Shown here: positions 8,603 through 35,953 of the stretch, piece after piece
Position numbering within the stretch: the first letter of the stretch is position 1
Layout of the letters: each line of letters opens with the position of its first letter
Assembly (NCBI RefSeq): GCF_016107575.1
Contig: NZ_JABAST010000015.1
Span: 1 to 64,000, forward strand
Reading direction: 5' to 3'
Origin: Psychrobacter faecalis
GTDB taxonomy: Bacteria; Pseudomonadota; Gammaproteobacteria; Pseudomonadales; Moraxellaceae
DNA: 64,000 bases
Notes under the pieces: model-generated
The model's input: the letters and a program-made list of their open reading frames with translations, nothing else
Databases searched by the model: none
Told to the model about the DNA's origin: nothing
Translations under genes and position numbers: made by a program

Positions 8603-8735
8603 ATGTCTAATTAGACCATTAATTATAAAATCTTCTATTAAGAAATCGCCTTATATGCAATGTTTACGTACGCTACCTTGATAAACGCAGCGACATTGTT
8701 TACGATAATAGGCTTTATTAATACATTAGGCTTCC

Positions 8736-9350: not shown

Positions 9351-9483
9351 TTAGACAACCGCTGATGACTCCCCTAAAATAGACTCTGATATAGAATAGC
9401 GATATAGTGAATGATTTTTCTATAAATACGACTTTATCGCAAACGAGACAGTATTTAATAATAATGCATAAGGAAACCAAAAA

Positions 9484-9921: not shown

Positions 9922-9966
9922 TTATGTTGAAAAATCGACTTTAAAATAGCCGAAAGAATTAGCCAT

Positions 9967-10003
9967 AAAAAAGCCAGTCATATTCCATATGCTGGCTTTT
10001 TTT
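9967..10003. terminator. Bidirectional terminator between sspB and dcd
   Basis: Arms AAAAAAGCCAG and CTGGCTTTTTTT, with CCAT/ATGG pairing outside them. Long A and T runs on each side let it stop transcription from both convergent genes. Confidence 0.9.
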
Positions 10004-10069
10004 ATGGTCAGTCCAAAATGCTAACAGGCTCAAAAACACTTAATCTCTTGGCGTTTAAGTGCTTGAGTA

Positions 10070-13924: not shown

Positions 13925-15277
13925 CTAACCAATCGGTAAAAATTTAGAAGCGATGAATAAATAGATCAGTACACCCGAGGCATCACTGATTGAAGTAATC
14001 AAAGGCGCACTGGCGGTTGCAGGGTCAAAACCGAGTTTATTGAGTATAAAAGGCAGACTCATGCCAATGACACTACCAATCATAACAACGCACAGCATAC
14101 TTAGTGCCAAAACCAAAGAGACGGTCGCGTCACCGCGCACATAGCCAATAAGGGCAATGGCAACGGCCATCGTCGCCCCGAGCAGCAGGGCAACTAAGGC
14201 TTCGCGGCCAAGGAGTGAAAACCAATCACGCATCACCACATCACCCGTCGCTAAAGCACGTACCATTAAAGTCGCTGATTGCGAGCCGGCGTTACCGCCA
14301 CTATCAACCAGTAAAGGTAAGAAAAATACCAATACTAAGTTTGCCGCAATGACGTCTTCGAAGTTAGCAATACTTAGCCCCGACAGCAAGTTGCCAAATA
14401 CTAAAAACACCAGCCAAAAAACCCGCTTACGGTAAAGGACAGTAATACTGACGTCTTTTAAGCGCCCAACCATGGTCGAGACACCGCCTGACTTATGGAA
14501 GTCATCCGTGGCTTCATCACTTGCCACGTCCATCGCGTCATCATGAGTGACGATACCAACCAACGCCCCACTGGCATCAGTAATGGGTAGGGAGATTAAG
14601 TCATAACGGGCAACAGTTTTCGCAACGTCTTCTTGATCATCGTTGACATCAGAAGAGATGACCGAGCTGACCATGATGTCTTTAATCAGCTGCTCAGGCG
14701 ATGATAAAATAAGCACCCTTAATGACACCACGCCCAAGAGCTTACGCGCGTCATCAATCACATAAGCATGATAAATAGTTTCGGCATCGGGCGCTTCTAA
14801 ACGTAGCGCGTCCAAGGCTTCGGCGACAGTCATCTCAGCCCCTAACGTCGCATAATCAGAGCTCATCAAGGCACCAGCTGTGCCTTCTTCATAGGCCGAT
14901 AGACGGCGAATATCCTCACGCTTCGCCTGCGCTAAGGCAGGTAATAACACGTCGCGTTGGTCTTGACTTAAGCGCTTATACAAATCAGTCCGTTCATCAG
15001 ATGGCATCTCACCGACTATCTTGGCTAAAATAGCGCGCGGAAAGACATAAGCGAGCGCCACTTGACTATCTGGGTCTAAATAAGCAAATATCGTCGAGCG
15101 ATTGGGCAAATGCGCAAGGAGCTGCCAAGCGAGTTTGGGTTCAATTAATGCCAATAAATCAGCTATATCGATAGGACGCAGGTTTTGAATCTCTTCAATC
15201 GCTTGCTCATACTGCTGCTGCTCGATAGCACGGCTTATTTTTTCGGCATAGGTCAACGCCAAGTCTTTATTATTCAT
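13925..15277 (-). CDS. mgtE: Magnesium transporter MgtE
   Basis: Inner-membrane Mg2+ channel/transporter. Domains in order: N-terminal MgtE_N superhelical domain (residues 20-125), a CBS pair (about 130-255), a connecting helix, and five membrane helices from about 285 with the pore region PLLVDSGGNAGSQSATL. At 450 residues it has standard length. The start at 15277 is chosen because CGGAG lies nine bases upstream; an in-frame start 57 bases earlier would add a Phe/Leu-rich tail without a good site. The CBS and N domains sense cytosolic Mg2+ in characterised members. Monocistronic by layout. Confidence 0.94.
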   Translation of the reverse strand: MNNKDLALTYAEKISRAIEQQQYEQAIEEIQNLRPIDIADLLALIEPKLAWQLLAHLPNRSTIFAYLDPDSQVALAYVFPRAILAKIVGEMPSDERTDLYKRLSQDQRDVLLPALAQAKREDIRRLSAYEEGTAGALMSSDYATLGAEMTVAEALDALRLEAPDAETIYHAYVIDDARKLLGVVSLRVLILSSPEQLIKDIMVSSVISSDVNDDQEDVAKTVARYDLISLPITDASGALVGIVTHDDAMDVASDEATDDFHKSGGVSTMVGRLKDVSITVLYRKRVFWLVFLVFGNLLSGLSIANFEDVIAANLVLVFFLPLLVDSGGNAGSQSATLMVRALATGDVVMRDWFSLLGREALVALLLGATMAVAIALIGYVRGDATVSLVLALSMLCVVMIGSVIGMSLPFILNKLGFDPATASAPLITSISDASGVLIYLFIASKFLPIG

Positions 15278-15449
15278 CGCTTTTACTCCGTGCAGCGCAA
15301 AATAGGGCAACAGGCGCTCATAAAAAAGAGCCAATATTATTGGCTCAAATTAACATAAAATCAAATGCTAAAGGATTGAGGTTTTATTAGCAAGCGAATG
15401 ATGCTTAAACCAAGCAAACAGCCCGCAAATCTATCCATTGACCAAACTA

Positions 15450-16250
15450 TTAATTCATAAACCAACCATGACTGGCGACGATAGACTGCCCAGTAAATAC
15501 ATTGCTTGGAAAAGCCGCTAAGAATAATGCCAATTGAGCGATATCATCAACCGTGGTAAATTCTTTATCAACGGTATTGACCAACATAATGTCATTTACC
15601 ACAGATTCTTCACTGATGCCTTTTTCAACCGCTTGTTGCGGGATTTGTTTCTCGACTAATGGTGTTTTGACAAAACCGGGACAAATGACATGTGCGCGTA
15701 CATTATGTTCAGCGCCTTCTTTTGCCAACACCCGGCACAGTCCAAGTAGTCCGTGCTTGGCAGTAACATACGGTGCTTTAAATAATGACGCTTCATGCGA
15801 GTGCACCGAGCCCATATAAATGACTGTACCGCCTTTGTCAGCCTTATACATATGCTGCACAGCCGCTTTAGTGGTTAAAAATGCCCCATCTAAATGAATA
15901 GCAAGCATTTTTTTCCAGTCAGCAAACGCCATTTTATGAATCGGGTCAATGATTTGAATACCCGCATTTGATACAAGAATATCTATACCACCAAAGGTAT
16001 CCACTAATTGCTGTACGCCAGAATTTACGGCACCCTCTGAGGTCACATCCATGGCGATCGCTAACGCACGTCCGCCAGCGGATTCGATAGCATCGACCGT
16101 TTGCTGTGCGGCTGCCAGATTAATATCAGCAATACCAACGGCAGCGCCTGCTTTAGCATAGGTTTCAGCGATATCACGGCCAATGCCGCTTGCAGCGCCA
16201 GTGACTAATGCCACTTTGCCGGTCAAATCTTGTTGTAATGTGGTCGCCAT
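15450..16250 (-). CDS. bdhA: 3-hydroxybutyrate dehydrogenase (SDR family)
   Basis: NAD-dependent short-chain dehydrogenase that oxidises 3-hydroxybutyrate to acetoacetate. Cofactor motif TGAASGIG (residues 17-24), NAG at about 95, and catalytic Ser-Tyr-Lys in SVHSHEAS and YVTAKHG. The SVHSHEAS signature is typical of 3-hydroxybutyrate dehydrogenase rather than of general SDRs. 266 residues. Third gene after scoA and scoB on the same strand with gaps of about 68 bases, so probably one operon. The product acetoacetate is the substrate of the preceding CoA transferase. Confidence 0.9.
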
Positions 16251-16317
16251 ATTTTATAGTCCATTATTAAATAGGTTGTTTGGATGCCTATATTACCCGC
16301 TTGTTTATTAAACAGGC

Positions 16318-16947
16318 TTATTGAGTAATGCTCACTGGCGTTTTTTCTTGTAACTCCTCAAAACTTACGCCTTCTGCCAGCTCAACCAATTTTAGACCGT
16401 TGTCAGTGACATCTAATACGGCAAGCTCGGTAATGATACGGTCGACCACCCCTTTACCCGTTAGTGGCAGCTCACAGTCGGCAAGGATTTTTGGCTCGCC
16501 ATGTTTGTTGACTTGCTCCATCAGCACAATCACCCGCTGCACGCCAGCCACCAAATCCATCGCGCCGCCCATGCCTTTGACCATTTTTTTCGGAATCATC
16601 CAGTTGGCCAAATCGCCTTTTTCGGATACTTCCATCGCGCCCAATATCGCAAGATTGACATGACCGCCGCGGATCATCGCAAACGACTCTGAACTACTAA
16701 AATAGCTGGCACCGGGTTCAGTGGTTACGGTTTGCTTGCCCGCATTGATTAAATCCGCATCGACATTTTCTTCGGTTGGAAACTCGCCAATACCGAGTAA
16801 ACCGTTTTCAGACTGAAGCCAAACATCGACGCCCTCAGGGATATAGTTGGCGACTAGGGTCGGTAAACCAATACCTAAATTAACATAATAGCCGTCTTTT
16901 AATTCTTGAGCGGCACGCTGTGCCATCTGCTCTCTTGTCCATGCCAT
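16318..16947 (-). CDS. scoB: 3-oxoacid CoA-transferase subunit B
   Basis: Beta subunit of a two-component succinyl-CoA:3-ketoacid (or acetate:acetoacetate) CoA transferase. The 209-residue protein has [12 protein letters not shown] near the start and the catalytic glutamate in SENGLLGIG (about residue 51), the signature of CoA transferase family I subunit B, plus GGAMDLVAG. Downstream of scoA, upstream of bdhA. Whether the CoA donor is succinyl-CoA or acetyl-CoA cannot be read from the sequence. Confidence 0.92.
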
Positions 16948-22293: not shown

Positions 22294-23358
22294 ATGAGCC
22301 AAAATAAAATGACCTTTGCCACTACTTTACGCCTTAGCCTGTGCGGCGCTGCTTTTAGCGCGGCGCTTGGTTTAACCGCTTGCTCTAATAATGCGACCGA
22401 CCCTGCCGTCAACGCTGATGATAGCGCAACTAACGATAAGCCTGCCAAAACCTTGGCCATCACGCAAATTGTCGAGCATCCTTCTTTAGATGAGATGCGC
22501 CGCGGCATTATTGATGAGCTGGCGGACAACGGCTACGCAGAAGGGCAAAACCTAACCGTTAATTTTCAAAGTGCGCAAGGGAATACCGCAACGGCTGGGC
22601 AAATTGCCAAACAGTTCGCCGGTGACAATCCAGATGCCATCGTCGCCATCTCAACACCTTCTGCGCAATCAATCGTAGCGTCGACTAAAACTGTTCCCGT
22701 TATTTATACCGCCATTTCAGACCCTGTGGCAGCCAAGCTAATTGACGAAAATGACGTGCCTATCCAAACCAATGTGACTGGTTTGTCGAGCGAATTACCT
22801 ATTGAACCGCAGTTAGACAATATTCAAAAAATTGTCCCTAATGTGAAAACCATTGGTTATGTTTATAGCCCAGGCGAAGCCAATTCGGTGGTGGTTCTTA
22901 AACAACTGGAAAAAGCAGCACCAGCACGTGGGCTTAAGATATTGGGCGTTACTGCCAATCGCCCTACCGACGTTGCAATGGCGACTCGTAGTCTAGCAGG
23001 CAAGGTAGAGGTTATTTATACCTCATTAGATAACAACGTGGTTTCTGCCTTTGAAGCAATGGCAAATGCGGCTAATGAACTTGATATCCCAGTTATTGCC
23101 TCAGATGAGTTTAGCGTCAGACGCGGTGCGACGGCGGCACTTGGGGTTAATGATTATGACTTTGGCCGTACCACGGGCAAAATGGTGTATCGGGTATTAA
23201 ACGGTGAAGCGACCAAAGATATCGCACCGCAAGTGATGAATACCTTAACGCTATATGTCAGCCCAAAACACGCCGCTGAACAAGGTACTAGCCTATCGGC
23301 AGACTTACTTAAAAACGCCATCAATGTCGACAAAGAAGCACAAAAGGTCAGTAAATAG
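22294..23358 (+). CDS. ABC transporter substrate-binding lipoprotein (TrpX-like)
   Basis: A 354-residue periplasmic binding protein of the ABC_sub_bind (TrpX/DUF534) type. The N-terminus has a lipoprotein signal ending LTAC, followed by an Ala/Asn/Asp-rich spacer. The fold signatures ITQIVEHPSLDEMRRGI, NFQSAQGN and GYVYSPGEANS are shared with the next gene. Relatives in other bacteria bind tryptophan or other aromatic compounds; the ligand here is unknown. The permease and ATPase genes follow after the second binding protein. Confidence 0.87.
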   Translation: MSQNKMTFATTLRLSLCGAAFSAALGLTACSNNATDPAVNADDSATNDKPAKTLAITQIVEHPSLDEMRRGIIDELADNGYAEGQNLTVNFQSAQGNTATAGQIAKQFAGDNPDAIVAISTPSAQSIVASTKTVPVIYTAISDPVAAKLIDENDVPIQTNVTGLSSELPIEPQLDNIQKIVPNVKTIGYVYSPGEANSVVVLKQLEKAAPARGLKILGVTANRPTDVAMATRSLAGKVEVIYTSLDNNVVSAFEAMANAANELDIPVIASDEFSVRRGATAALGVNDYDFGRTTGKMVYRVLNGEATKDIAPQVMNTLTLYVSPKHAAEQGTSLSADLLKNAINVDKEAQKVSK

Positions 23359-23524
23359 TCACTAATAAATAGTTGCGACTCAATAGTAAAGAATAAATGG
23401 ACGGTAATTAATAATCAGCTATACAACGGATTACACAATCAGCTAGGATAATGGCTGGCAGCGCTACCCTTTTTTATCTTTTATATAATGTACGGACACA
23501 TTATTATTTTCAGGAGTCAGACCC

Positions 23525-24553
23525 ATGTTGTATCAAAATCGTTTTGCCAAAGCTTTATTATGGGGCGGTGTTTGCACCGCTATCTTGACCGGCTGTAACC
23601 AGCCAGCACAAGATGCCAACACCACTGACGGCGCTGCAACGGGCGGCGATGCCAAAGCTGTCATGAAAACGGTCGCTATTACCGCCATCGTTGAACATCC
23701 AGCACTCGATGATGTGCGTAAAGGCGTTATCGACGAGTTAAGTGACGCCGGCTTCAAAGAAGGCGAAAACTTAACCATCAACTTCCAAAGCGCCCAAGGT
23801 AATACCGCCACTGCCGGTCAGATTGCCAAACAATTCGTCGCTGATGCACCAGATGTCATCGTAGCGATTGCCACACCATCGGCTCAGTCTGTAGCCGCTT
23901 CTACCAGCAGCATTCCTATGGTGTTCTCAGCGGTCACCGACCCTGTTGCAGCTAAATTGGTACCGAAACTTGATGGCTCTGGCACCAACGTTACTGGCGC
24001 CTCTGATGCCCTTCCTTATGCACCGCAAATCGATTTGATGCGTCAAATTATCCCAAGTCTAAAAAACGTCGGTTATGTCTATAGCCCAGGCGAAGTAAAC
24101 TCAACCATCGTTTTAAAAGCGCTAAAAGAGAATCTGACCCCGCTTGGTATTAACGTTCACGAAGCGCCTGCGCAGCGTAGTAACGATATTGCGATGGCCG
24201 CTCGTAGCCTTGAAGGTAAAGTCGATATGATTTATACCTCAACGGATAATAACGTGGTTTCAGCATACGAATCACTGTACCAAATCGCTAAAGAAAGTAA
24301 GATTCCATTGATTGCCTCTGATACCAGTTCGGTTGAACGCGGTGCCGTTGCTGCGTTAGGAGTGAACTATTACGATTTGGGCCGCGAAACCGGTAAAATC
24401 GTTACGCGTATCTTAAACGGTGAAAAAGCAGGCGAAATCCCTGTTTATACGCCGCAATCGCTTGATTTACATGTCAGTCCAAAGAATGCGCAAGCCGAAG
24501 GCATCACGCTACCACAAGCCGTTATCGATAAAGCAAAAGTAGTGTTAGAATAA
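23525..24553 (+). CDS. Second ABC substrate-binding lipoprotein, paralogue of the preceding gene
   Basis: A 342-residue paralogue with the same segments (VEHPALDDVRKGVIDEL, NFQSAQGNTATAGQIAKQF, GYVYSPGEVNS) and a lipobox LTGC. CAGGAG lies ten bases upstream of ATG. The two proteins are clearly a tandem duplication that has since diverged outside the conserved blocks. Both presumably feed the single downstream permease/ATPase. It has its own 166-base upstream gap and may carry its own promoter. Confidence 0.87.
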   Translation: MLYQNRFAKALLWGGVCTAILTGCNQPAQDANTTDGAATGGDAKAVMKTVAITAIVEHPALDDVRKGVIDELSDAGFKEGENLTINFQSAQGNTATAGQIAKQFVADAPDVIVAIATPSAQSVAASTSSIPMVFSAVTDPVAAKLVPKLDGSGTNVTGASDALPYAPQIDLMRQIIPSLKNVGYVYSPGEVNSTIVLKALKENLTPLGINVHEAPAQRSNDIAMAARSLEGKVDMIYTSTDNNVVSAYESLYQIAKESKIPLIASDTSSVERGAVAALGVNYYDLGRETGKIVTRILNGEKAGEIPVYTPQSLDLHVSPKNAQAEGITLPQAVIDKAKVVLE

Positions 24554-24577
24554 CTGCCGCTTTTAACTCTAATTCTT

Positions 24578-24606
24578 AGACGATAGTTTTTATCAATTAT
24601 CGTCTA
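24578..24606. repeat. Hairpin after second binding-protein gene
   Basis: Nine-base arms TAGACGATA/TATCGTCTA with an 11-base loop and no T-run. It may protect the mRNA 3' end or limit read-through; it is not a classic terminator. Confidence 0.5.
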
Positions 24607-24655
24607 GGTTAATTGGATATAGCTATTTTGATATGGCTATGTAGGTAGCGCAGAC

Positions 24656-24693
24656 AAACCCAGCTCTCAGTCAGTAGGCTGGGCTTGTTTTTT
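24656..24693 (+). terminator. Terminator between binding-protein and permease genes
   Basis: CCCAGC...GCTGGG hairpin followed by CTTG and a T-run. A terminator here would lower permease/ATPase expression relative to the binding proteins, as expected for importers. Confidence 0.75.
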
Positions 24694-24894
24694 CAAGGCT
24701 GTAAATAAGCAAAGCTTATAATCAAGCATTCTAAGAATAGGTTTTGCTTGACCCTAACTGCAGATACCTCTATCTGTTAAATTCACCGCTTAGTCGTTTA
24801 AGCAAAGTTGGCTGATTGATAGCGCGATATGTCGCCTATCTCAATTATCTCGCCATCATTTATTAAACGCTGGGTTATGACTTACTGATCTCTT

Positions 24895-25794
24895 ATGTCT
24901 TTAATTGCTTTTTTTGGTGCGCTTGAAAGTGGTCTGATTTATGGCCTAGTGGCGCTTGGCGTCCTTATCTCATTTCGTACCCTCGACTTTCCAGATTTGA
25001 CCGCTGACGGTAGTTTTCCGTTGGGCGGCGCTGTCGCGGGTATTTCTATCATCGCTGGAGTGAATCCTTGGCTTGCTTGTGCCTTTGGTATGCTAGCAGG
25101 GTCAGTCGCCGGTATTGTCACCGCGTGGCTACACGTTAAGCTGGGCATTTTACAGCTGCTTGCCAGTATCCTTGTGATGGTTGCTTTATACTCTGTCAAT
25201 CTACGGATTATGGGTGCGCCAAACTTACCATTGTTAGGTGAAACGACCGTATTTAGTACCTTGGTCAGTGATGGTAATGGTTACTGGATGCGCTGCCTCA
25301 TTATTGGTGTCGTCGTCCTATTGGCCATGTTGTTTTTAAACTGGTTTTATAGTACCGAAACGGGTTTATCGATGCGGGCGACTGGCTCAAACCTACGCAT
25401 GGCACAGGCGCAAGGTATCAATACCTCATGGATGACCATCATTGGTATGGCGATTTCTAACGGCTTGATTGCGTTAGCAGGCGCATTATTTGTGCAGACG
25501 CAAGGTGGCGCTGATATCTCAATTGGTATCGGTACGATTGTCATTGGTTTAGCAGCGGTCATCATCGGCGAGACCATTATTCCAGCTAAGCGTATTTGGC
25601 TGATTACCTTTGCGGTGGTCGTTGGTGCGGTGCTTTATAAGCTCTTTATTCAAGTGGCTCTATCAAGCAGTACGCTACGTAGTATCGGATTTGGTCCCCA
25701 AGATTTGAACTTGATTACCGCGCTACTCGTGGTATTAGCCTTAGTCTTGCCAAAAGCTAAAAATAAATTTTTAAGTCGTAAAGTTCGGGCTTAA
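24895..25794 (+). CDS. ABC transporter permease (TrpY-like)
   Basis: A 299-residue inner-membrane permease of the branched-chain amino-acid/TrpY type (BPD_transp_2 fold) with about eight to nine hydrophobic segments. Characteristic strings include SGLIYGLVALGVLISFRTLDF near the start, TETGLSMRATGSN (cytoplasmic coupling segment near 160) and a C-terminal Lys/Arg-rich tail. The gene is followed at 31 bases by the ATPase. The ribosome site is weak, with only GATCTC upstream. Works with the ATPase and the two binding lipoproteins. Confidence 0.88.
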   Translation: MSLIAFFGALESGLIYGLVALGVLISFRTLDFPDLTADGSFPLGGAVAGISIIAGVNPWLACAFGMLAGSVAGIVTAWLHVKLGILQLLASILVMVALYSVNLRIMGAPNLPLLGETTVFSTLVSDGNGYWMRCLIIGVVVLLAMLFLNWFYSTETGLSMRATGSNLRMAQAQGINTSWMTIIGMAISNGLIALAGALFVQTQGGADISIGIGTIVIGLAAVIIGETIIPAKRIWLITFAVVVGAVLYKLFIQVALSSSTLRSIGFGPQDLNLITALLVVLALVLPKAKNKFLSRKVRA

Positions 25795-25825
25795 TGTCAA
25801 TATGCAACCATAAGGAATAATTATT

Positions 25826-26620
25826 ATGATGCAAGCTACAGATTTGCGGTTGACCTTTAACCCTGGAACGCCCATTGAAAACCCTGCCCTACGCGGTATC
25901 AATTTAAATATCGCCGATGGTGAATTTGTCACCGTCATCGGTACCAATGGCGCAGGCAAATCGACCTTTTTAAATGCTGTCAGTGGCACCACGCGCGTGG
26001 ATAGCGGTTCAATCTTGTTAAATGGTATTGATGTCACCAAAAAGACCGCACACCAACGTGCCCATTGGGTTGCTCGCGTTTTCCAAGACCCGATGGCGGG
26101 AACTTGTGAGGCGCTAACCATCGAAGAAAATATGGCGCTAGCCTATAAGCGCGGCGGCAAACGTGGTTTGAACTTTGCCCTTAATCAAAATAACCGTGAC
26201 TTATTTCGCGAGAAATTATCGGTATTAAAATTGGGTCTAGAAAATCGTTTAACCGACCGTATGGGCCTGTTATCCGGTGGTCAACGCCAAGCCGTGAGCT
26301 TACTGATGGCGTCATTGCAACCGTCTAAGATTCTACTGCTTGATGAGCATACGGCGGCCCTTGACCCTAAAACAGCGGCGTTTGTTTTAGAATTAACCGA
26401 TAAAATCGTCACCGACAATCAGCTAACAACGATGATGGTGACGCATTCGATGCAGCAGGCTCTAGCTCATGGTACGCGTACTGTGATGCTTCATCAAGGT
26501 CAGGTGGTATTAGACGTATCTGGCGATATCCGTAAAGGCATGGATGTGCATGATTTACTGGATATGTTTGAGCAAACCCGCGGTGAAAAGGTCGAAGATG
26601 ACAGTTTGATATTAAGCTAA
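25826..26620 (+). CDS. ABC transporter ATP-binding protein (TrpZ-like)
   Basis: The 264-residue ATPase that drives the importer. Walker A GTNGAGKST (about residue 40), Q-loop FQDPMAG, signature LSGGQRQAV, Walker B ILLLDEHTAAL and the switch histidine in MMVTHS. The Walker B region has DEHTAAL instead of the common DEPTSAL, a variant seen in this transporter group. AAGGAA precedes two adjacent ATG codons (25826 and 25829); either could start. A terminator lies 31 bases past the stop. Confidence 0.9.
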   Translation: MMQATDLRLTFNPGTPIENPALRGINLNIADGEFVTVIGTNGAGKSTFLNAVSGTTRVDSGSILLNGIDVTKKTAHQRAHWVARVFQDPMAGTCEALTIEENMALAYKRGGKRGLNFALNQNNRDLFREKLSVLKLGLENRLTDRMGLLSGGQRQAVSLLMASLQPSKILLLDEHTAALDPKTAAFVLELTDKIVTDNQLTTMMVTHSMQQALAHGTRTVMLHQGQVVLDVSGDIRKGMDVHDLLDMFEQTRGEKVEDDSLILS

Positions 26621-26695: not shown

Positions 26696-27349
26696 TTAAG
26701 AATCAAGCATGACCAATTTTTGAATCAATTCACTGACATGCTGCGCTTGCATTTTCTTCATCACCTGTGAGCGATGTACCTCTACCGTTCGTACCGATAT
26801 GTCTAAATGGTCGGCGATATTTTTATTTAGATTGCCTTGCATCAGCTCATGAGCGACCTGTTTTTCTTTCTCGGTTAGCTGCGCATAGAGCTTTTTTATA
26901 CTATAAAGCTCAGCTCGTTTGAGGGTTAATACTTGCGCACGCTCAAGCGCTTCTTGGAGACGGTGACTATTAATCGGTTTCTCTAAATAATCAGCGGCGC
27001 CTTGTTTGAGCATATTAACAGCATCAGCAATCTCACCTTGACCAGTTAATGCAATAAGCGCTATCGGACTGTCCTGTTGATTAAGGTGCGCTTGTAGTGC
27101 TTGACCGCTCATGGCTGGCATCATTAAATCACTGACGATCACCGCGGGATAATAGATATCAACTTGCTGCAAAAAAGTCAGGGCACTTGACCACACTTGG
27201 GTCGGCAATCCTAAGCTGCTAATTAAAAAATTACAGGAATGACGCACGCTTTCTTCATCGTCGATGATATGAACCAGTAGAGGTTCATTATTGCTATCAA
27301 CTGGCGTTTGCCATTCTGAGTGCTTAACTGAATTATGCTGAGCATTCAT
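26696..27349 (-). CDS. FixJ/TtrR-type response regulator
   Basis: A 217-residue response regulator. The receiver domain has acidic IIDDEE, phospho-acceptor Asp in VSDLMMP (about residue 71), switch Thr in ALTGQG and Lys in YLEKPI. The C-terminal LuxR/FixJ helix-turn-helix contains LTEKEKQVAHELMQGNLNKNIADHL and VRTVEVHRSQVMKKM. ATG 27349 has AAGG nearby; a TTG two codons upstream is less likely. Encoded about 105 bases downstream of the sensor kinase, so one operon. The pairing with a TtrS-like kinase suggests a TtrR-like role in sulfur-oxyanion response (inference). Confidence 0.87.
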   Translation of the reverse strand: MNAQHNSVKHSEWQTPVDSNNEPLLVHIIDDEESVRHSCNFLISSLGLPTQVWSSALTFLQQVDIYYPAVIVSDLMMPAMSGQALQAHLNQQDSPIALIALTGQGEIADAVNMLKQGAADYLEKPINSHRLQEALERAQVLTLKRAELYSIKKLYAQLTEKEKQVAHELMQGNLNKNIADHLDISVRTVEVHRSQVMKKMQAQHVSELIQKLVMLDS

Positions 27350-27454
27350 ACGCAACCTTATGATTAAGTTAATTTGTAAAATTTATAAATGCTTGGTTGT
27401 TGATAACCCTCTCTTGCTCACTTTCGCTTTTGCTTACTGTCTCTGTTGATTATC

Positions 27455-29689
27455 TTATTTCTGCGCATCATCTGCCAAATGCAACGGCAGATAAAAAGAC
27501 ACTTGCGCACCTACCCTGTTTGCTAATGGATGAGTGTTTTCCATTTTTATCAAGCGCACTTTACCATTTAACGACCGCTTTAAGCGTTGCTGATAACCAT
27601 CTAACGCTTGTATAGTATTAAGCTCCTGCTGGAATTCGATATTGCCAAGCTGCATCATACCGCCAATTGACTTGCACAAACGCTGACATATCATCAGCCC
27701 CAAGCCTAAACCATTTTCTTTGGTCGATTTGGTGGCGTATTTATTAGTCAGACGCTGTTGTGATTGACCCTCAACTAACTGCTGATTACCCTCTAACGGT
27801 TTATGGTCAAGCAACTGCGCCTCATCAAAACCGCCTGCATCATCGGTTATATGCAATACGATATAAGATTTACCATTATAATCTTTTGCCTGACAACGTA
27901 ACATTATCTGCGTTGCCCCTTGCTGCTCGGCATTGAGCATACTATTCATCAATAACTGGTCAAGAACCAAGCTTGGCAACTGCAAAGTCTGGTAGTCACT
28001 CGCCAACCAAAAGCCAATACTTGAGGCTTTTTCACCAAGTAGCAATATACACTGCGCATAGGTGGTGACGATGTCCACTTGAACGTTGTTCGGCTGCGAG
28101 CGCCCTGCCCAGCGCCGAATATTACTGATAACAGCCGCGACCCGTTCGGTTTCATTAACAATTTGCTGTAACGCACTTTCTGTCGCTTGTTTGTCTATTG
28201 CTTGCTTTTCTAGCACTTGCTTGTCCGTTAGGGTCTTTTCTAGCGCATTCAAACTATGGGCAGAGTTTTTATCCAGCACCGTACTTTCTTTACCGTCTTG
28301 GCGGCTGACACTGCTTTGACTGCGAATAAGTAAGCCTTGCGCATAATTTTGAATGGTCGCCAGCGGCTGATTGATTTCATGGGCGATGGATCCACTCATC
28401 TCACCGATGACAGCGAAGCGTTCTGATTGACGTAGCTGCTGGTCATAATCACGAATCAGTTGATTTTGCAGAATGATTTTTTGCCGTCGTCGCCATGCCA
28501 GCCAGCTCATCCACGCATAATTCACCGTTGATATCAGTACAATTAAAACGATAACTGCCATCCACAATCGATGCGCCTTTACCCAATCGACCATATGCGC
28601 GCCCAGCTGCTTTTGTGCTGGATGACGATTCATATCATAAAGGATACGTTCAGCATCGCTACTCGATTCGGCTGGTAGCCAGTGCTGTCCTATCCCTAAC
28701 GACTCTTGCTCTGGTTGACTCTTTCCATATTGACTCAAACCAAATAAATTTTGATTGATTTGCCGAATCAAGGCAGCTGGCGTTTGCTCGGTCGCCGCCA
28801 ATGTCCAATTGGGATATATCTTTGTTGAAGACTGACAGCTAGAAGCGGTCGCCACAGGGTGAATAAGTCGGTATTGTTTTTTGCTAATCTTCCCTTGCTG
28901 CGCCATCTCTTCCATCAAACAAAGTGGCGCAATCGCTGCATCTACACTGCCACTCGCCAATGCATGTAAGGTACGCTCAATAGGATAACCGACGAACTGG
29001 GTCTGATAACGGTTGGATGGCATACCGTTTTGTTGTAATAAATGCGCGACGAGCAGATAACCACCAAAAGCCTCACTGTCGACGGCAGCAATTTTACGCT
29101 GCTGCAAATCTTGCAGCTGATAAATGCCGCTGTCTGCCTTTACCCAAAGAGCACTAGCGACGGCTTCCATGGCGCTGGGCTCTTTTAACTGCCTATCTTG
29201 AGACAGTTTATTAAATTCATTAGCTAGATTAACCGTTGTAGAAAGCGGCTTATCAACGGTTTTATTGAAACCTTTTTCATGAAAAGCTTTTTCCTTAAAG
29301 TTTTTACCATTGATATCAGCAGGCGCATGCAATTGAGCGGTCTCTGTATCAGCTTGCAAGGTCGCAAGCCAGCGCCAATGGGTGGTATTCATTTTAATCA
29401 GTTGAACTTGTGGTCCAAGCACTAGGGCAAACTGCTGCGCTTCGATTTCCTGCTGCCAATTTTCTAACGCTAGCGGCACCAAGACCACAGTGTCTTCTCG
29501 GAGTTGCTCATTAAGTTGATTAAGCCAAGGTTGCCAACGCTCTTGCGCAGCCGTTTCCCCTTGCGGCGCCAGCACGCCTAAATAGTAGGTTTGTGCATTG
29601 GCACTGGCTAGCATTAACCAAGTAAAGGACGCTACCACGACAAGAAAATAAGCCTTCAAGCTCGCCCAGACTTTAGACTTTTTATCCAT
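27455..29689 (-). CDS. TtrS-like sensor histidine kinase with PhnD-type periplasmic domain
   Basis: A 744-residue membrane kinase. Residues 10-32 form a signal/membrane segment. About 33-365 is a PhnD-like periplasmic binding domain with LGVLAPQGE, FGGYLLVAHLLQQNG and CQSSTKIYPNW, resembling tetrathionate sensor TtrS. A second membrane helix is at about 372-392. The kinase core has H-box IAHEINQPLATIQ (about 436), N-box LLMNSMLNAEQ, DDAGGFDEA and NGLGLGLMI. Two low-complexity regions (about 165-195 and 460-500, Lys/Asp/Thr-rich) look like insertions. The locus is divergent from the tri-heme cytochrome and tsdA genes, whose product tetrathionate is the TtrS ligand in enteric bacteria. Ligand here inferred, not shown. 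Confidence 0.85.
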   Translation of the reverse strand: MDKKSKVWASLKAYFLVVVASFTWLMLASANAQTYYLGVLAPQGETAAQERWQPWLNQLNEQLREDTVVLVPLALENWQQEIEAQQFALVLGPQVQLIKMNTTHWRWLATLQADTETAQLHAPADINGKNFKEKAFHEKGFNKTVDKPLSTTVNLANEFNKLSQDRQLKEPSAMEAVASALWVKADSGIYQLQDLQQRKIAAVDSEAFGGYLLVAHLLQQNGMPSNRYQTQFVGYPIERTLHALASGSVDAAIAPLCLMEEMAQQGKISKKQYRLIHPVATASSCQSSTKIYPNWTLAATEQTPAALIRQINQNLFGLSQYGKSQPEQESLGIGQHWLPAESSSDAERILYDMNRHPAQKQLGAHMVDWVKAHRLWMAVIVLIVLISTVNYAWMSWLAWRRRQKIILQNQLIRDYDQQLRQSERFAVIGEMSGSIAHEINQPLATIQNYAQGLLIRSQSSVSRQDGKESTVLDKNSAHSLNALEKTLTDKQVLEKQAIDKQATESALQQIVNETERVAAVISNIRRWAGRSQPNNVQVDIVTTYAQCILLLGEKASSIGFWLASDYQTLQLPSLVLDQLLMNSMLNAEQQGATQIMLRCQAKDYNGKSYIVLHITDDAGGFDEAQLLDHKPLEGNQQLVEGQSQQRLTNKYATKSTKENGLGLGLMICQRLCKSIGGMMQLGNIEFQQELNTIQALDGYQQRLKRSLNGKVRLIKMENTHPLANRVGAQVSFYLPLHLADDAQK

Positions 29690-29925
29690 ACACCTAGCCT
29701 TACAATTGAGCTATCAAACCTTCATTATAAATTAAAACCATAATTATAATGTGGTTTTCCACAATATCACAATGTTACACGCTCCTCTATACTGAATGAC
29801 AATCGTGTAACTTTTCATTCACTAAGCTTAAATCCTAAATGTTTCATAGGACTATCTAATAGTCCTCATAGAATGTATATGACGAATGAGAAGCTTAGTA
29901 AAAATATCTTATGGAGGGCAGGCTT
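29690..29925. promoter_or_regulatory. Divergent control region with two inverted repeats
   Basis: Two symmetric elements are visible: GTTACAC (29774-29780) with GTGTAAC (29805-29811), and AGGACTAT-cta-ATAGTCCT (29848-29866). They lie between the sensor kinase and cytochrome genes, where a response regulator would act. Neither can be assigned to a known box. Confidence 0.5.
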
Positions 29926-31302
29926 ATGAAAAAGTGGCTATTAATCATTATTATGGCAGCCATTGTCGGGCTGATTTTAGCGTTTATTATTGGGCAAATA
30001 CTGCCTAATATGCGCACAACCAGCAGTGACATTGAGGTTAATGTCACCGACCCTGCGCTTATTAAACAAGGCGAATACATCGCGCGTACTGCTGACTGTG
30101 TCGCCTGCCATACGACGCTTGACGGGGAGAACTATGCCGGTGGTCTGCCTATGCTGACGCCGCTAGGTGCCATTTATTCAACCAACATTACCCCTGATAA
30201 AGAAACCGGTATTGGTCAATATACCTTTAGCGACTTTAAAAATGCCGTCAAGCATGGCGTGCGCCGTGATAATAAAGCGCTATATCCTGCCATGCCCTAT
30301 CCGTCTTATCAGCTTATGCCAGAGGAAGATTTGGCCGCGATGTATGCCTATTTTATGTCTGACGTCAAACCGGTCAAGCAAGCCAACTTAAAAAGTGAGT
30401 TGCCGCCAATAGCCAATTGGCGCTGGCCGCTGGCTTATTGGCAAGCACTGTTTGACCCAAAACGTGACTTTGTGCCAGAAACTGATGATGCGCTATTGAC
30501 CCGTGGCCAGTATCTAATAGAAGGTCCTGGACACTGCGGCTCTTGTCATACTGAGCGCGGTATCGGTTTCCAAGAAATCGCCTTAAACAATGCCGACTCA
30601 GAAGAATATTTGAGCGGGGCGGTTATCGATGGTTGGCGCGCCAAAAGTATCCGCGGTGAGCATCGCGGTTTGGCTACGTGGACCGTCGCAGAATTAAATG
30701 ATTTCTTTAAAACCGGTCGTACTGACACCACGGCTGCTTTTGGCGCCATGGCCGAAGTGGTCGAGCACAGCACGCAATATATGACAAACTATGATATCAA
30801 CGCCATGTCATCTTATCTAAAAACCTTAACGCCAGCGCCCAATAAAGAAAAAACCTTGCCGGCGAAAAAAGACATTACCACGCAAAAACTGCTTGATGGC
30901 AATTATGATTCGCGCGGCTCGATTCTATACGCCGAGTATTGCCAAGTTTGTCACCGTGCTGATGGTAAAGGCGTGGCGCGTATCTTCCCAGCCCTTGATG
31001 GCAATAGTGCGGTATATGCGAAAAATGCCGACTCGGTACTCCAAATCACCTTGAGCGGTGGCCGCATGCCAGAAACCCCGCACGACCGCATGGCCTTTAC
31101 CATGCCTGAATTTATTAACCTGAGTGATGCCGATGTGGCGGAAGTGGTCAACTATGTCCGTAATAGCTGGACCAACCAAGCACCTGAAATCGATGTCGAT
31201 GATGTGGTAAAAATGCGCGCTTTTCTTGCCAAAAAACCAAAGACCAGTACCGATATCGCCCCAGACTTAAGTATTGATGCGCAAACAAAAGGAGCAAAAT
31301 AA
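29926..31302 (+). CDS. Tri-heme membrane-anchored cytochrome c
   Basis: A 458-residue protein with an uncleaved-looking N-terminal membrane anchor (residues 3-25) and three covalent heme motifs: CVACH (about 57), CGSCH (about 205) and CQVCH (about 340). The overall form resembles cytochrome subunits of membrane alcohol/gluconate dehydrogenases (AdhB-like). No dehydrogenase subunit is adjacent; instead the stop overlaps the tsdA start (TAATG), so it likely takes electrons from TsdA or passes them to an oxidase. This role is inference. GGAGG lies eight bases before ATG 29926; an earlier in-frame start overlaps the site. Confidence 0.85.
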   Translation: MKKWLLIIIMAAIVGLILAFIIGQILPNMRTTSSDIEVNVTDPALIKQGEYIARTADCVACHTTLDGENYAGGLPMLTPLGAIYSTNITPDKETGIGQYTFSDFKNAVKHGVRRDNKALYPAMPYPSYQLMPEEDLAAMYAYFMSDVKPVKQANLKSELPPIANWRWPLAYWQALFDPKRDFVPETDDALLTRGQYLIEGPGHCGSCHTERGIGFQEIALNNADSEEYLSGAVIDGWRAKSIRGEHRGLATWTVAELNDFFKTGRTDTTAAFGAMAEVVEHSTQYMTNYDINAMSSYLKTLTPAPNKEKTLPAKKDITTQKLLDGNYDSRGSILYAEYCQVCHRADGKGVARIFPALDGNSAVYAKNADSVLQITLSGGRMPETPHDRMAFTMPEFINLSDADVAEVVNYVRNSWTNQAPEIDVDDVVKMRAFLAKKPKTSTDIAPDLSIDAQTKGAK

Positions 31303-32270
31303 TGAAAAACTCTCCACTCAACTTGCCTGCTATTGTTAGCGTAATCTCTCAGAAAATAAAAATGGGCAAACTAACCACCGCTGCCCTGACTGCTTCAGCG
31401 CTTAGTATCGCCGCTATTAGTAGTGGCTGCTCACAGCCCGAGCCTACTGAGCAAAACGCGCCTAAATATGGCTTAGTTACTGCTGATGATGCCAACGAAG
31501 ACATCGGTACTTATGTACTGCCGCAAGATACTTCTATCTTGGATGAGCCAAACGCTGATGAAATCTTTTATGGTAAGCGATTATTAAACGAAACCAAGCG
31601 CTTATTACCCGAGCACGTTGGCGCGCAAATGAACTGTAATAGCTGTCATATTTCGCAAGGTAAAATCCCCCTTGGCGACCCGTATATCAACAGTTACAAC
31701 TTCTACCCGCGTGTGATGCCACGCGCAGGTAAAGAAATCGATTTAATCAAACGCATCAATGGCTGTTTTCAGCGTTCGATGAATGGCAAACCATTAAAAC
31801 CTGAATCCCCTGAAATGCTAGCAATGTTGGCCTATATGAAATGGCTGTCCCAAAATACGCCGAAAGAACAAAAGGTCGATATCCAAAACGCGGGTAAAGT
31901 GGATGAATCCTTGGTCGGTAACCCTGTACGCGGTAAAAAAATATACCAAGTACAATGCGCCACCTGTCATGGTGATAACGGCGAAGGCATGAAAGACAGT
32001 CGCGGTGATATTGTCTTCCCACCATTATGGGGCGATGAATCCTTTAATATCGGTGCGGGCATGGCGCGTACTTATAAAGCGGCGGCTTTTGTGAAATACA
32101 ATATGCCGATGGGCATTCAAACCAAAGGTCTATGGGGTCATGGCAATGTGCTCAGTGATCAAGACGCCATCGATGTCGCTGAATTTTTTACCCATCAACC
32201 GCGTCCTGACTTTGCTGGCAAAGTAAACGACTGGCCTAATGGCAAAAAACCTAAAGATGCGCGTTATTAA
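31302..32270 (+). CDS. tsdA: Di-heme thiosulfate dehydrogenase TsdA
   Basis: Oxidises two thiosulfate to tetrathionate in the periplasm. The 322-residue protein has an N-terminal export signal ending near SSGC (possible lipoprotein), a first heme motif CNSCH (about 113-117), and a second CATCH (about 223-227). The diagnostic cysteine axial ligand of heme 1 is in INGCFQRSMNG, 39 residues after the first heme histidine, the same spacing as I recall for Allochromatium vinosum TsdA. PPLWGDESFNIGAGMAR is also typical. AAAGGAG precedes the ATG; a second in-frame ATG lies 20 codons downstream. Translationally coupled to the tri-heme cytochrome. Confidence 0.92.
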   Translation: MKNSPLNLPAIVSVISQKIKMGKLTTAALTASALSIAAISSGCSQPEPTEQNAPKYGLVTADDANEDIGTYVLPQDTSILDEPNADEIFYGKRLLNETKRLLPEHVGAQMNCNSCHISQGKIPLGDPYINSYNFYPRVMPRAGKEIDLIKRINGCFQRSMNGKPLKPESPEMLAMLAYMKWLSQNTPKEQKVDIQNAGKVDESLVGNPVRGKKIYQVQCATCHGDNGEGMKDSRGDIVFPPLWGDESFNIGAGMARTYKAAAFVKYNMPMGIQTKGLWGHGNVLSDQDAIDVAEFFTHQPRPDFAGKVNDWPNGKKPKDARY

Positions 32271-32354: not shown

Positions 32355-32470
32355 TTATCTATGGTTAATGCGACTAAAAAATTTTGACCAGCCATTATAT
32401 AGTAGTGCTTAAGGCAATGACTTTTATTACAGTCATACTTACTTATCGCCATTCGCTTATGAGGTCTATC

Positions 32471-34867
32471 ATGCGTAAAATTCCTATTTACTCTCACCCT
32501 GCAGCTGGTTGGCCAGCTTTGGTTGCTTCTACTCGTAAGTTAATGGATTATAAGGCTTTTTTGCGTGGCAGCATAAGTATCTTGCATAGCAACCAGCCCA
32601 ACGGCGGCTTTGACTGTCCGGGCTGTGCATGGCCAGATCATAAGACCCATAAAAGCCTTGATGTCTGTGAAACGGGTATTAAAGTCATTGCTAGTGAAAC
32701 GATGAGTAGGCGCGCCGATGCCGCATTTTTTGCCAAACATAGCGTTAAAGAACTACAAGGCTGGTCAGGCTACGAGCTTGAGCACAGCGGCCGCTTATCA
32801 GAGCCGTTATATTATGATGCGGGGCAAGACCGCTATGTGGCGATTTCTTGGCAGGCAGCGTATGAGCGTATCGCCGAGACATTACAGAATCTCGATTCGC
32901 CAGATGAAGCGTTATTTTACACCTCAGGACGCGTCACTAACGAGCCTGCTTTTATGTATCAATTGTTCGTACGCTGTTTTGGCACCAATAATTTGCCAGA
33001 TTGCTCAAATATGTGTCACGAGCCAACGTCAGTGATGCTCGGTAAACAGTTAGGCGTCGGTAAAGCCACGGTGGTTTTGGAAGATTTTGAACAGGCGAAG
33101 CTAATTATGCTGTTTGGGCAAAATCCTGCCACCAATCATCCGCGTATGCTTGAGATGCTGGCACACGCTCATAAGCAAGGCTGCAAAATCATCTCTATCA
33201 ATCCGATGCGGGAGCAAGGTTTAAGCAAGTTTAGAAATCCACAAAAACCTACCCATATGGCCGCAGGGCAAAGTGATGAAATGGTTGATGAAGTCATTCA
33301 AATTCAAATCGGTGGTGATACCGCTTTATTGACGGGCTTGGCCAAATGGCTGACCAAAAATGGCAAAATTGATAATGATTTTATTGAGCAGCACACATCA
33401 GGTTATGAGGCGCTCGATACTTGGTTACGCCAGCAGTCTTGGGCAGAGGTAGAGCGTGGCTGCGGTATTAGTAAAGCAGACATTATCAAACTTGCCAAAC
33501 TTGTTGCTGATAGCCCAGCAACCATTTGTACCTGGGGCATGGGTATTACCCAACATGTCCAAGGCGAAGATAACGTCGCCATGATTACCAATTTGTTGCT
33601 ACTCATGGGGATGATTGGGGTCGATGGCGCAGGCGCCTCACCGGTGCGTGGTCACTCCAATGTGCAGGGCGATCGCACCATGGGTATCCATGAGCGCCCT
33701 AAACAGAGCTTACTTGATAGCCTTGAGCGCGTGTTCAAGCGCCCTATGCCACAAGAAGATGGGCTTGATGTCATCGCTGGCGCAAAAGCATTAATGCAAG
33801 GTAAGCTCAAAGCTTTTATCAGCATGGGCGGTAATTATGCCGTTGCCGCGCCCGATAAAAGTGCGATTCAAACGGTCTTAACCACTACCGAACTCAATGT
33901 TTTCATCGGCACCAAACTTAATGAAACTATGCTATATCCGGGTAAAAATAACCTTATCTTACCTTGTATCAGTCGTACCGAACGCTTAGTAACGGAAAAA
34001 GGTGAGCAGTTCGCGACGATTGAAGACTCTATGTGCCAAATTGTTCCTACGCGCGGTCGCATTGAGCCGATTAGTGATAATTTAAAATCTGAAGCGCAAA
34101 TTGTGGCCGATATGGCAACCCACGCGCTTGACGCTGATTCGTCTATTCCATGGCAAACAATGAGCAGCGACTTTGATATCATCCGTAATTATATCGCTCA
34201 AGCGATTGAAGGCTTTGAGAATTTTAACGATCGTATTCGTGAAAACGAGCGCGGTTTTCATTTATACCACCCTGCCCGTCATCGCGTTTGGAATACCGAT
34301 AGCGGCAAAGCGCAGTTTGAAGTCCCACAATATCCCATTACTTATGTCGCAGCACAGATGGCAGAAACCACATCGAGCTATCATAGCCATGCTAAAAATA
34401 ACAATGCTAAAAGTGACCATAGCAAAAATAATGAACCCGCGATTCATCCAAGCAATAGCGATCACAATCCAACCCAAAGCGCTGAGCAAAAAGTATGGCA
34501 GCTAACCAGTGTCCGCAGTCATGATCAATTTAACACCATGATTTTTGGTCATCAAGACCGCTATCGCCAGACCAACCGCCGCGACGTGTTATTTATGCAT
34601 CCCGATGAAATCAAGCGTTTAGGTTGGCAAAAAGGCGATAGTGTTATGGTATCGCGTCAAGACAGTCAAGATGAACAGCGCACCTTAGGTCCATTAATAC
34701 TGACTGAGATGGATATCGCTGCCAATGCAGTGGCGACTTATTATCCTGAATGTAACGACCTTATCGACTTAGACACTCACGCGCCAGACTCAAGGACGCC
34801 TTCTTATAAATCCGTTACCGTTGTTTTGCAGCGCGTTACTGAAAACACACTAGCTGCCAGCGCTTAA
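32471..34867 (+). CDS. FdhF/YdeP family molybdopterin oxidoreductase
   Basis: A 798-residue cytoplasmic molybdopterin-guanine-dinucleotide enzyme of the YdeP type, related to the formate dehydrogenase alpha subunit. The N-terminal AGWPAL and GGFDCPGCAWPD (about residues 50-60) mark the YdeP group and offer two cysteines for a cluster. Molybdopterin-binding segments include FGQNPATNHPRM, GADGASPVRGHSNVQGDRTMG-like loop around 390-415, and the C-terminal molydop-binding domain from about 675. A Asn/His/Lys/Ser-rich linker (about 650-685) looks lineage-specific. The start 32471 has GAGG seven bases upstream. Substrate unknown; YdeP aids acid resistance in E. coli. fdhD follows. Confidence 0.87.
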   Translation: MRKIPIYSHPAAGWPALVASTRKLMDYKAFLRGSISILHSNQPNGGFDCPGCAWPDHKTHKSLDVCETGIKVIASETMSRRADAAFFAKHSVKELQGWSGYELEHSGRLSEPLYYDAGQDRYVAISWQAAYERIAETLQNLDSPDEALFYTSGRVTNEPAFMYQLFVRCFGTNNLPDCSNMCHEPTSVMLGKQLGVGKATVVLEDFEQAKLIMLFGQNPATNHPRMLEMLAHAHKQGCKIISINPMREQGLSKFRNPQKPTHMAAGQSDEMVDEVIQIQIGGDTALLTGLAKWLTKNGKIDNDFIEQHTSGYEALDTWLRQQSWAEVERGCGISKADIIKLAKLVADSPATICTWGMGITQHVQGEDNVAMITNLLLLMGMIGVDGAGASPVRGHSNVQGDRTMGIHERPKQSLLDSLERVFKRPMPQEDGLDVIAGAKALMQGKLKAFISMGGNYAVAAPDKSAIQTVLTTTELNVFIGTKLNETMLYPGKNNLILPCISRTERLVTEKGEQFATIEDSMCQIVPTRGRIEPISDNLKSEAQIVADMATHALDADSSIPWQTMSSDFDIIRNYIAQAIEGFENFNDRIRENERGFHLYHPARHRVWNTDSGKAQFEVPQYPITYVAAQMAETTSSYHSHAKNNNAKSDHSKNNEPAIHPSNSDHNPTQSAEQKVWQLTSVRSHDQFNTMIFGHQDRYRQTNRRDVLFMHPDEIKRLGWQKGDSVMVSRQDSQDEQRTLGPLILTEMDIAANAVATYYPECNDLIDLDTHAPDSRTPSYKSVTVVLQRVTENTLAASA

Positions 34868-34900
34868 CAAAGATAGTTTGATAAAGGAAATGGTTAAAAT

Positions 34901-35953
34901 ATGATGGTCAGTAAACATAACGTAGTTGCAGTAGAACCTTGGTTAAATGGCTCAGCGGCCGATTTAGAAACCAATGCTGATCATGCTGCTGCGCCAATAA
35001 TGGATATGCAGACCGTGCCTTTATCGCGCCTACATTTAACACAAAAACATGCTTATTTATCTACAGCAAATGTCTCTTCTAAAAATGCAGAAACAGAGGT
35101 TGATGACAAATCAGCGCTGCTGGCAGTAGAGGCAGCGGTTGCGATTGTCATTAATGGTATCCACTATGCGATATTGATGGCAAGCCCCTACCAGCTTGAG
35201 TATCTTGCTATTGGTTTTTTGTATAGCGAAGGATTGATTCATCATAGTCATGAATTATTAGAGTGGGAGGTAACGCAACTGACCGATATTGCCAGTTACC
35301 GAAAATTCACCAGTGATTTAACGGATGACTTACTTGATGAAAAGACGGCATTTGAGCAATTTTCAGCGCAGTTGCAAGACTATGATGTATATGTAGTAGA
35401 GCTGGTACTAAATCAGCGCTGTCATCAGCGTATTCAAGCGCAGAGGCGACAGCTAGCAGGACGTACAGGCTGCGGTATGTGCGGTATCACCGGGCTTTCG
35501 CAAGCGCTTCCCGATTTAAGTCATTATTTATCATCCAGCTTGCAACAAAAACAGTCAGAATCCTCCGTGCCCAGTCTTAATTATTTACTGCACATGCATC
35601 AGCAAATTAACGCCGCCCAGCATACCCATCAACTCACTGGTGCGGTACACGCTGCAGCCACCATGCAAGGCAAGGATTTGTATTTATTTGAAGACGTAGG
35701 GCGTCATAACGCACTTGATAAACTCATCGGTTGGCAATTGCGCAACAAGACCAAGCTGACATGCGTGGTGATGACCTCGCGATTGTCTATTGAGCTGGTA
35801 CAAAAATCCATTCGTAGCCACATTCCTTGGCTCGTTGGTATGTCGGCACCGACCAGTACTGCAGTACGCGTCGCTGAACACTATGGTTTGGGACTGGCAG
35901 GGTTTTTACGCGATGACCGAGTTACTTATTATACCAATTATAAAGACGCTTAA
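34901..35953 (+). CDS. fdhD: Formate dehydrogenase sulfurtransferase FdhD
   Basis: Transfers sulfur to the molybdenum cofactor of formate dehydrogenase-type enzymes. The 350-residue protein carries the CxxC sulfur-relay loop GCGMCGITG (about residues 190-198) and the conserved EDVGRHNALDKL and MTSRLSIELVQK blocks. The N-terminal 60 residues are longer than usual and polar. AAAGGAAA lies ten bases before adjacent ATG codons at 34901 and 34904. It is 33 bases downstream of the YdeP-type gene, which suggests that enzyme is its client. Confidence 0.93.
   Translation: MMVSKHNVVAVEPWLNGSAADLETNADHAAAPIMDMQTVPLSRLHLTQKHAYLSTANVSSKNAETEVDDKSALLAVEAAVAIVINGIHYAILMASPYQLEYLAIGFLYSEGLIHHSHELLEWEVTQLTDIASYRKFTSDLTDDLLDEKTAFEQFSAQLQDYDVYVVELVLNQRCHQRIQAQRRQLAGRTGCGMCGITGLSQALPDLSHYLSSSLQQKQSESSVPSLNYLLHMHQQINAAQHTHQLTGAVHAAATMQGKDLYLFEDVGRHNALDKLIGWQLRNKTKLTCVVMTSRLSIELVQKSIRSHIPWLVGMSAPTSTAVRVAEHYGLGLAGFLRDDRVTYYTNYKDA

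Follow-up and report, generated by a model that had tools for sequence, protein, structure and literature searches.

In Vibrio parahaemolyticus the TtrRS system responds to tetrathionate by activating ttrBCA and, through the sequence GTGG-N4-CCAC, tsdBA; TsdBA oxidises thiosulfate, and self-activation by the enzyme's own product was proposed by the authors of that work (PMC11293645). The locus described here (positions 26696-32270 of a 64,000-nucleotide stretch of contig NZ_JABAST010000015.1 of Psychrobacter faecalis, the whole stretch being called the window) encodes a TtrSR-type two-component system and, divergently from it, a tri-heme cytochrome c (Cyt3) and TsdA, and is a reductase-free variant of the V. 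parahaemolyticus-type circuit. A TtrS-family sensor, a TtrR-type regulator and a GTGG-N4-CCAC sequence upstream of the tsd operon are common to the two. New here are the lack of a TtrA or PhsA over the model cut-off in the Psychrobacter genome, so that no ttrBCA branch was seen by the TtrA search, the partner of TsdA, which unlike TsdB is a tri-heme cytochrome of the alcohol dehydrogenase type, and an altered sensor loop, which separates tsdA-linked sensors from others. Psychrobacter further differs in having a single extended operator genome-wide. The preliminary description had spoken of a different wiring of a known sensor family. This holds for the linkage to TsdA without a reductase; own-product sensing, however, is not a new idea, because TtrRS of V. 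parahaemolyticus activates tsdBA and self-activation was already proposed (PMC11293645). No published account naming this Psychrobacter/Advenella locus was found by a search to which subscription literature was largely closed, and older work on TsdA may say more; TsdA of P. arcticus appears in a tree of PMC9237845.

The TtrSR-ttrBCA system of Salmonella and other enteric bacteria shares with the locus its domain architecture, its operator core and, in the best tree, its sensor clade. As in TtrSR, a PhnD-type periplasmic domain is combined with HisKA and HATPase domains, and the FixJ-type regulator gene adjoins the kinase gene. Enteric TtrSR differs in its output, a molybdenum tetrathionate reductase (TtrA of locus L244 scored 2039 bits, cut-off 1750), and in its sensor loop, TN[PQ]. 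ThsSR of Shewanella halifaxensis (PMC5408782) has the same architecture and a near-identical operator core, but its output is the thiosulfate reductase PhsAB/PsrC, and sensors of its kind make up a clade of their own. Two operators were present in 10 of 17 Shewanella loci, as against one in Psychrobacter. Neither the linkage to ttrBCA that goes with TtrSR nor the linkage to PhsA that goes with ThsSR was found in searches with the TtrA and PhsA models. Like TsdA of Allochromatium vinosum and Campylobacter jejuni, the TsdA of the locus has two CxxCH motifs and, by alignment, Cys and Met as heme ligands; its cytochrome partner and its linkage to a TtrSR-type pair set it apart from these enzymes.

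The reading we prefer, to which we give a probability of roughly 0.7, is that a dedicated TtrSR-type system senses a sulfur oxyanion, acts through the operator at 29749-29766 and switches on Cyt3-tsdA. Judging from sequence, this TtrS/ThsS-family sensor very probably controls the Cyt3-tsdA operon and not a reductase operon; the control is supported because the operator is single in the genome and was lost along with the regulator. The periplasmic domain of the kinase would bind the oxyanion, most likely tetrathionate, the kinase would phosphorylate the regulator, and the regulator would bind the operator, near the start of the -35 region, whereupon Cyt3 and TsdA would be switched on. TsdA would convert thiosulfate and tetrathionate into each other, exchanging electrons with Cyt3. 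If the net reaction is thiosulfate oxidation, the loop would therefore be a positive feedback on TsdA's own product. The identities of the genes, the operator, its single occurrence and its loss along with the regulator are read from the sequences; ligand, direction, electron path and feedback are inferences.

Operator and co-loss with the regulator

The predicted operator ATGTGGTTTTCCACAATA has a core resembling both the published ThsR operator of S. halifaxensis (TATGTGGTTTACCACAAT; PMC5408782) and the ttrR box, GTGG-N4-CCAC, which is thus found at the predicted Cyt3-tsdA promoter. When the genome of 3,081,191 bases was searched with TGTGGNNNNCCACA, there was one occurrence, in the kinase-Cyt3 intergenic region, and none with the backward control. 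Likewise, TGTGG-N4-CCACA was present in a single copy in the 3.08 Mb genome.

TsdA of the window type was found in 45 of 105 Psychrobacter genomes (the copy in G050 is broken), giving a set of the window plus 44 other loci from which decayed copies in G026 (locus L106), G031 and G055 were excluded. The kinase (E < 1e-100) was present in 39 of the 105 genomes, all of them among the 45 tsdA holders and none among the other 60, and it adjoined tsdA in each of the 39. The regulator was encoded in 41 of the 45 loci, and all 41 contained the operator core (with TTTT as the spacer in 40); it was absent from four (L080, L100, L101, L102), and so was the core. A search upstream of Cyt3 at up to four mismatches gave four 4-mismatch strings in L080 and none in L100, L101 and L102. 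The association of regulator and operator was significant by Fisher's test (p 6.7e-6, for 45 loci that are related to each other), and a quick tree of Cyt3 and TsdA resolved the four regulator-less loci into two separate losses. The -10-like TATACT stood at the same spacing from the operator in at least 90% of the 41 loci, L096 being deviant.

Two sister loci, L090 and L099, have lost the kinase, both at the locus and in the rest of the genome (the search of G006 gave no match, that of G087 a distant kinase match only). Their regulators (3090-3776, minus strand, and 4302-5060, plus strand) kept the helix-turn-helix region and the loci kept the operator core; the phosphorylation quintet, DDDTK in 39 of the 41 loci, aligned as SPDGA and KDRGE. 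Four of the five quintet residues are lost in each, and the L090 regulator may still have a phosphorylatable Asp. These orphan TtrR-type regulators are probably phosphorylation-independent activators.

When genomes were scanned with an alignment of the sensors, the best 80 of 154 relatives were kept; these comprised 27 loci of Psychrobacter, two of Advenella, 34 of enteric type and 17 of Shewanella. In Advenella (two species, Betaproteobacteria) Cyt3 (63%) and TsdA (64%) diverge from the system and the operator is present; TtrA and TtrB had no match in about 20 kb around these loci. The operator core was found also in 33 of the 34 enteric-type ttr loci and in 16 of the 17 Shewanella loci. In Psychrobacter, the two Advenella loci, the two enteric loci inspected and G306, a locus of the class sample described below, the asymmetric CCACAATA side of the site is the one that faces the target operon.

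The top NCBIfam models were TtrS (NF040750, 347.6 bits) for the kinase and TtrR (NF040749, 205.8 bits) for the regulator, with FixJ second for the latter. Because these scores are under the respective cut-offs of 750 and 290 bits, the proteins were not filed as TtrS and TtrR equivalogs; the Advenella kinase was likewise under the TtrS cut-off (522.2 bits). Kinase and regulator are encoded leftward and Cyt3-tsdA rightward, and the latter genes look like an operon because the Cyt3 stop codon and the tsdA ATG overlap by one base, 31302. For Cyt3, ATG 29926, behind GGAGG, is likely the more plausible start. The top Protein Data Bank (PDB) match of Cyt3 was 8gy2_B, the cytochrome c subunit of a quinone alcohol dehydrogenase (E 1.4e-107); all five PDB sequences matching below E 1e-40 carry names of dehydrogenase subunits (cytochrome or beta), and the nearest solved relatives serve alcohol, glucose, fructose and aldehyde dehydrogenases as cytochrome subunits. 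TsdA matched best the thiosulfate dehydrogenase 4wqc_A (E 3.5e-44), which belongs to one PDB series with 4WQ7 and 4WQ9 of A. vinosum; alignment gave Cys155 as heme-1 ligand and Met268, with Asn267 beside it, as heme-2 ligand. Domains and top models thus confirmed the TtrS-like kinase with a PhnD-like domain and the FixJ-type regulator of the preliminary description, and its divergent pair of tri-heme cytochrome (three CxxCH) and TsdA with a heme-ligand cysteine (Cys155) was also correct, coordinates included.

Table 1. Features of the locus, with positions in the window
Feature	Positions	Strand	Remarks
TtrR-like FixJ-type response regulator	26696-27355	-	Response_reg and GerE domains; receiver phosphorylation quintet DDDTK intact
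TtrS-like sensor histidine kinase, 744 amino acids	27455-29689	-	Phosphonate-bd, HisKA and HATPase_c domains; H-box His437
Periplasmic PhnD-type sensor domain, kinase residues 31-365	28595-29599	-	Cys257/Cys285, GPQ loop (residues 92-94), poorly modelled insertion
TtrR/ThsR-type operator ATGTGGTTTTCCACAATA (predicted)	29749-29766	+	kinase-Cyt3 intergenic region
-10-like TATACT	29788-29793	+	21 nt past operator, oriented toward Cyt3-tsdA operon
Cyt3, tri-heme c-type cytochrome	29911-31302	+	hydrophobic N-terminus; CxxCH at residues 63, 209 and 344
TsdA, diheme thiosulfate dehydrogenase/tetrathionate reductase by homology	31302-32270	+	SoxA-TsdA_cyt-c domain

Direction of the TsdA reaction

Net thiosulfate oxidation by TsdA has, in our estimate, a little better than an even chance, and we lean towards it over tetrathionate reduction. 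The opposite case, possible if somewhat improbable, is that TsdA acts mainly as a tetrathionate reductase: the sensor would detect tetrathionate and induce its consumer, the customary wiring though with an atypical reductase, and a second TsdA would make the tetrathionate. Such a role has a precedent in TsdA of C. jejuni, which serves as a tetrathionate reductase, and a second TsdA does exist. In the P. faecalis genome it is 43% identical to the first (L109, 7338-8315, contig C10) and has Lys in place of Asn267; it sits among genes read as housekeeping, and the 16 kb that were read contain no GTGG-N4-CCAC. A paralogue of this kind (about 40-49% identical) was present in 44 of the 45 genomes with window-type TsdA, one copy being broken, as against 13 of the 60 without (p 1.4e-16, kinship of genomes ignored), and Lys occupied the AvTsdA-208 position in 5/5 paralogue loci read. 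The thiosulfate/tetrathionate couple lies at +198 mV, so that ubiquinol could reduce tetrathionate. Against a reductase role stand the largely aerobic life of Psychrobacter, the solved relatives of Cyt3, which are dehydrogenase subunits, and TsdBA of V. parahaemolyticus, which is under the same kind of regulator and oxidises thiosulfate. A third type of TsdA, with Asn at the AvTsdA-208 position, was seen in L112-L114.

The residue beside the heme-2 ligand was tried as a sign of direction and rejected. Asn was found in 39 of the 40 TsdA loci read in the class sample, out of a larger set of matches, and being the common state it is uninformative; the K208N variant of AvTsdA retains the residual tetrathionate reductase activity of the wild type.

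In the P. faecalis genome SoxB had no match and the best match to the TtrA model reached 38.8 bits (cut-off 1750; ttrB and ttrC were not searched for). The PhsA model had no match over its cut-off, and the best one, on contig C40, was matched below cut-off by the models for formate dehydrogenase and NasC.

Ligand of the sensor

A structure model of the sensor domain had a mean predicted local distance difference test (pLDDT) score of 79.5, residues 87-122 and 129-138 being below 50. The top 50 Foldseek matches were a mixture of PtxB, PhnD, HtxB, ArrX, AioX and SsuA, and a PDB profile search gave weak matches to ArrX, PtxB, AioX and PhnD. The structural comparison asked for in the preliminary description thus returned the PhnD/PtxB/ArrX fold; as a guide to the ligand the fold was rejected, since binders of phosphonate, phosphite and arsenate have it in common and the model points to no ligand.

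In a first tree, built from 49 of 90 kinases, the sensors of Psychrobacter and Advenella formed a clade (100/98) that grouped with TtrS (98/95) and not with the Shewanella sensors. TtrS/ThsS, including this clade, were separated from eight other PhnD-type kinases (99/96), so that clustering with unrelated phosphonate sensors, which would have spoken against the earlier proposal, was not seen. A second tree (42 of 90, with the longest rows removed and fewer outgroup rows) kept the TtrS grouping at 90/87, and a tree of 42 of 86 regulators placed the regulator with TtrR at 93/92. The sensor stretches AFGG[YF]LL, RWL and CL[LM]E agree with TtrS; the Shewanella sensors have ALGG[Y]QA, SWL and CTLE.

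Residues 92-94 are GPQ in 21/21 Psychrobacter and APQ in 2/2 Advenella sensors; the same loop is TNP or TNQ in the 30 other sensors aligned (17 enteric-type, 13 Shewanella), and [GA]PQ versus TN[PQ] therefore separates the 23 tsdA-linked sensors from the rest. The pair Cys257/Cys285 is present in 53/53 aligned sensors; it is absent from the outgroup kinases L210, L211 and L212 and present in L205. Tetrathionate reacts with thiols, and a thiol step in sensing through this pair is conceivable. Most Psychrobacter sensors (not L096) carry an insertion of about 50 residues at kinase residues ~117-168, with pLDDT below 50, which is absent in the other groups.

An unlikely alternative is that the sensor detects thiosulfate as ThsS does, which would make the circuit a plain substrate induction of thiosulfate dehydrogenase. 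The operator type is shared with ThsSR (16 of 17 Shewanella loci have it), and in the approximately unbiased (AU) test a ThsS grouping of the sensor was not rejected (p-AU 0.137); the best trees place sensor and regulator with TtrS and TtrR, and the three sensor stretches are those of TtrS and not those of Shewanella.

Several observations weigh against the preferred reading, in which a dedicated TtrSR-type system reads a sulfur oxyanion and switches on Cyt3-tsdA. Kinase and regulator both score under the equivalog cut-offs given above. Besides the sensor, the regulator too could be grouped with its Shewanella counterpart, ThsR, without rejection (p-AU 0.216); the regulators of Advenella were not clearly joined to those of Psychrobacter, whose branches are long. 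With GPQ in place of TN[PQ], the ligand may differ from those of both TtrS and ThsS. Cyt3-tsdA was retained without a regulator in four loci, and in the decayed locus L106 a fragment of the regulator remains but no operator. Finally, the direction of TsdA is not readable from its sequence, given the usual residue at position 267 and the residual tetrathionate reductase activity retained by AvTsdA K208N. Accidental or historical proximity of a two-component system that regulates something else is very improbable: the scores under the family cut-offs and the four loci with Cyt3-tsdA but neither kinase nor regulator would fit it, but the single operator of the genome lies between kinase and Cyt3, the operator is lost together with the regulator and conserved together with regulator and kinase, and the same module occurs in another bacterial class, in Advenella. 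Of the proposed coupling of tetrathionate sensing to TsdA instead of to a reductase, the control of the operon is accordingly well supported, by the single operator and its co-loss with the regulator; with a ThsS grouping unrejected (p-AU 0.137), tetrathionate is the probable ligand, and oxidation the likelier direction of the enzyme.

A more far-reaching model can be put forward tentatively, the odds being somewhat against it. Psychrobacter and Advenella would possess a closed, reductase-free positive-feedback switch for thiosulfate oxidation, possibly all-or-none, in which a remodelled [GA]PQ sensor derived from TtrS reads the tetrathionate made by its only target enzyme, and one kinase-less Psychrobacter lineage would have made the regulator phosphorylation-independent.

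With one sensor, one regulator, one operator and one operon, the locus would be a minimal tetrathionate circuit, in which one can ask whether TsdA oxidises or reduces under such control and whether a bacterium in fact turns itself on by a compound that it has made. New candidate biosensors for thiosulfate or tetrathionate are offered by the [GA]PQ-loop sensors, and the natural losses (of the kinase alone, or of kinase, regulator and operator) are ready-made controls.

Relatives and neighbouring genes

Among 199 Moraxellaceae genomes, an 18-mer operator pattern was found in 21 of 66 Psychrobacter genomes, exactly the 21 with the kinase, and in none of the other 45. Outside Psychrobacter it was seen in 2 of 133 genomes, and the backward control matched in 5 of the 199. 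The flanks of the two matches in other genera (G552, G554), in the only check made there, had no match to the genes of the system. The preliminary description had suggested looking for the same neighbourhood in other Moraxellaceae, and in this sample the divergent arrangement was not found in other genera. A kinase match in G534, of another Moraxellaceae genus (genome 59% complete), adjoined the terminal part of a ttrA-like gene on a contig of 4 kb, with no operator, and was set aside. G538 of the same family encodes a truncated TsdA relative without the two-component system.

In the enteric-type loci TtrA and TtrB matches accompanied the operator core in 33 of 34, the exception, L265, being an incomplete stretch. 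The 16 Shewanella loci with the core also had a weak molybdoenzyme match, which was PhsA in 3/3 checked (L270, L271 and L283; 1361-1385 bits, cut-off 694). The remaining locus, L294 of Shewanella hafniensis, had neither, and contained no GTGG-N4-CCAC; its TtrS-like kinase (8387-10288) lies about 4.7 kb from a protein (14981-16369) matching 1sp3 (E 1.3e-302), which we take to be octaheme tetrathionate reductase.

In the class sample of 369 genomes TsdA was found in 42 and a TtrS-family kinase (E <=1e-60) in 11, own genome included. In one of the 40 TsdA loci read, G306, TsdA is accompanied by kinase, regulator and operator core as well as by TtrA- and TtrB-like genes; in G378 a Cyt3-TsdA pair occurs, the two-component system being absent. 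A scan of viral contigs with TsdA gave no relative.

Next to the two-component system, at 22294-26620, are genes for two tandem ATP-binding cassette (ABC) substrate-binding proteins, the first of which matches TrpX below cut-off, a permease and an ATPase; ABC genes of this type are still beside Cyt3 in L080, which has no two-component system. Right after tsdA, at 32384-35953, follow a molybdoenzyme of the FdhF/YdeP family (TIGR01701 over cut-off) and then FdhD.

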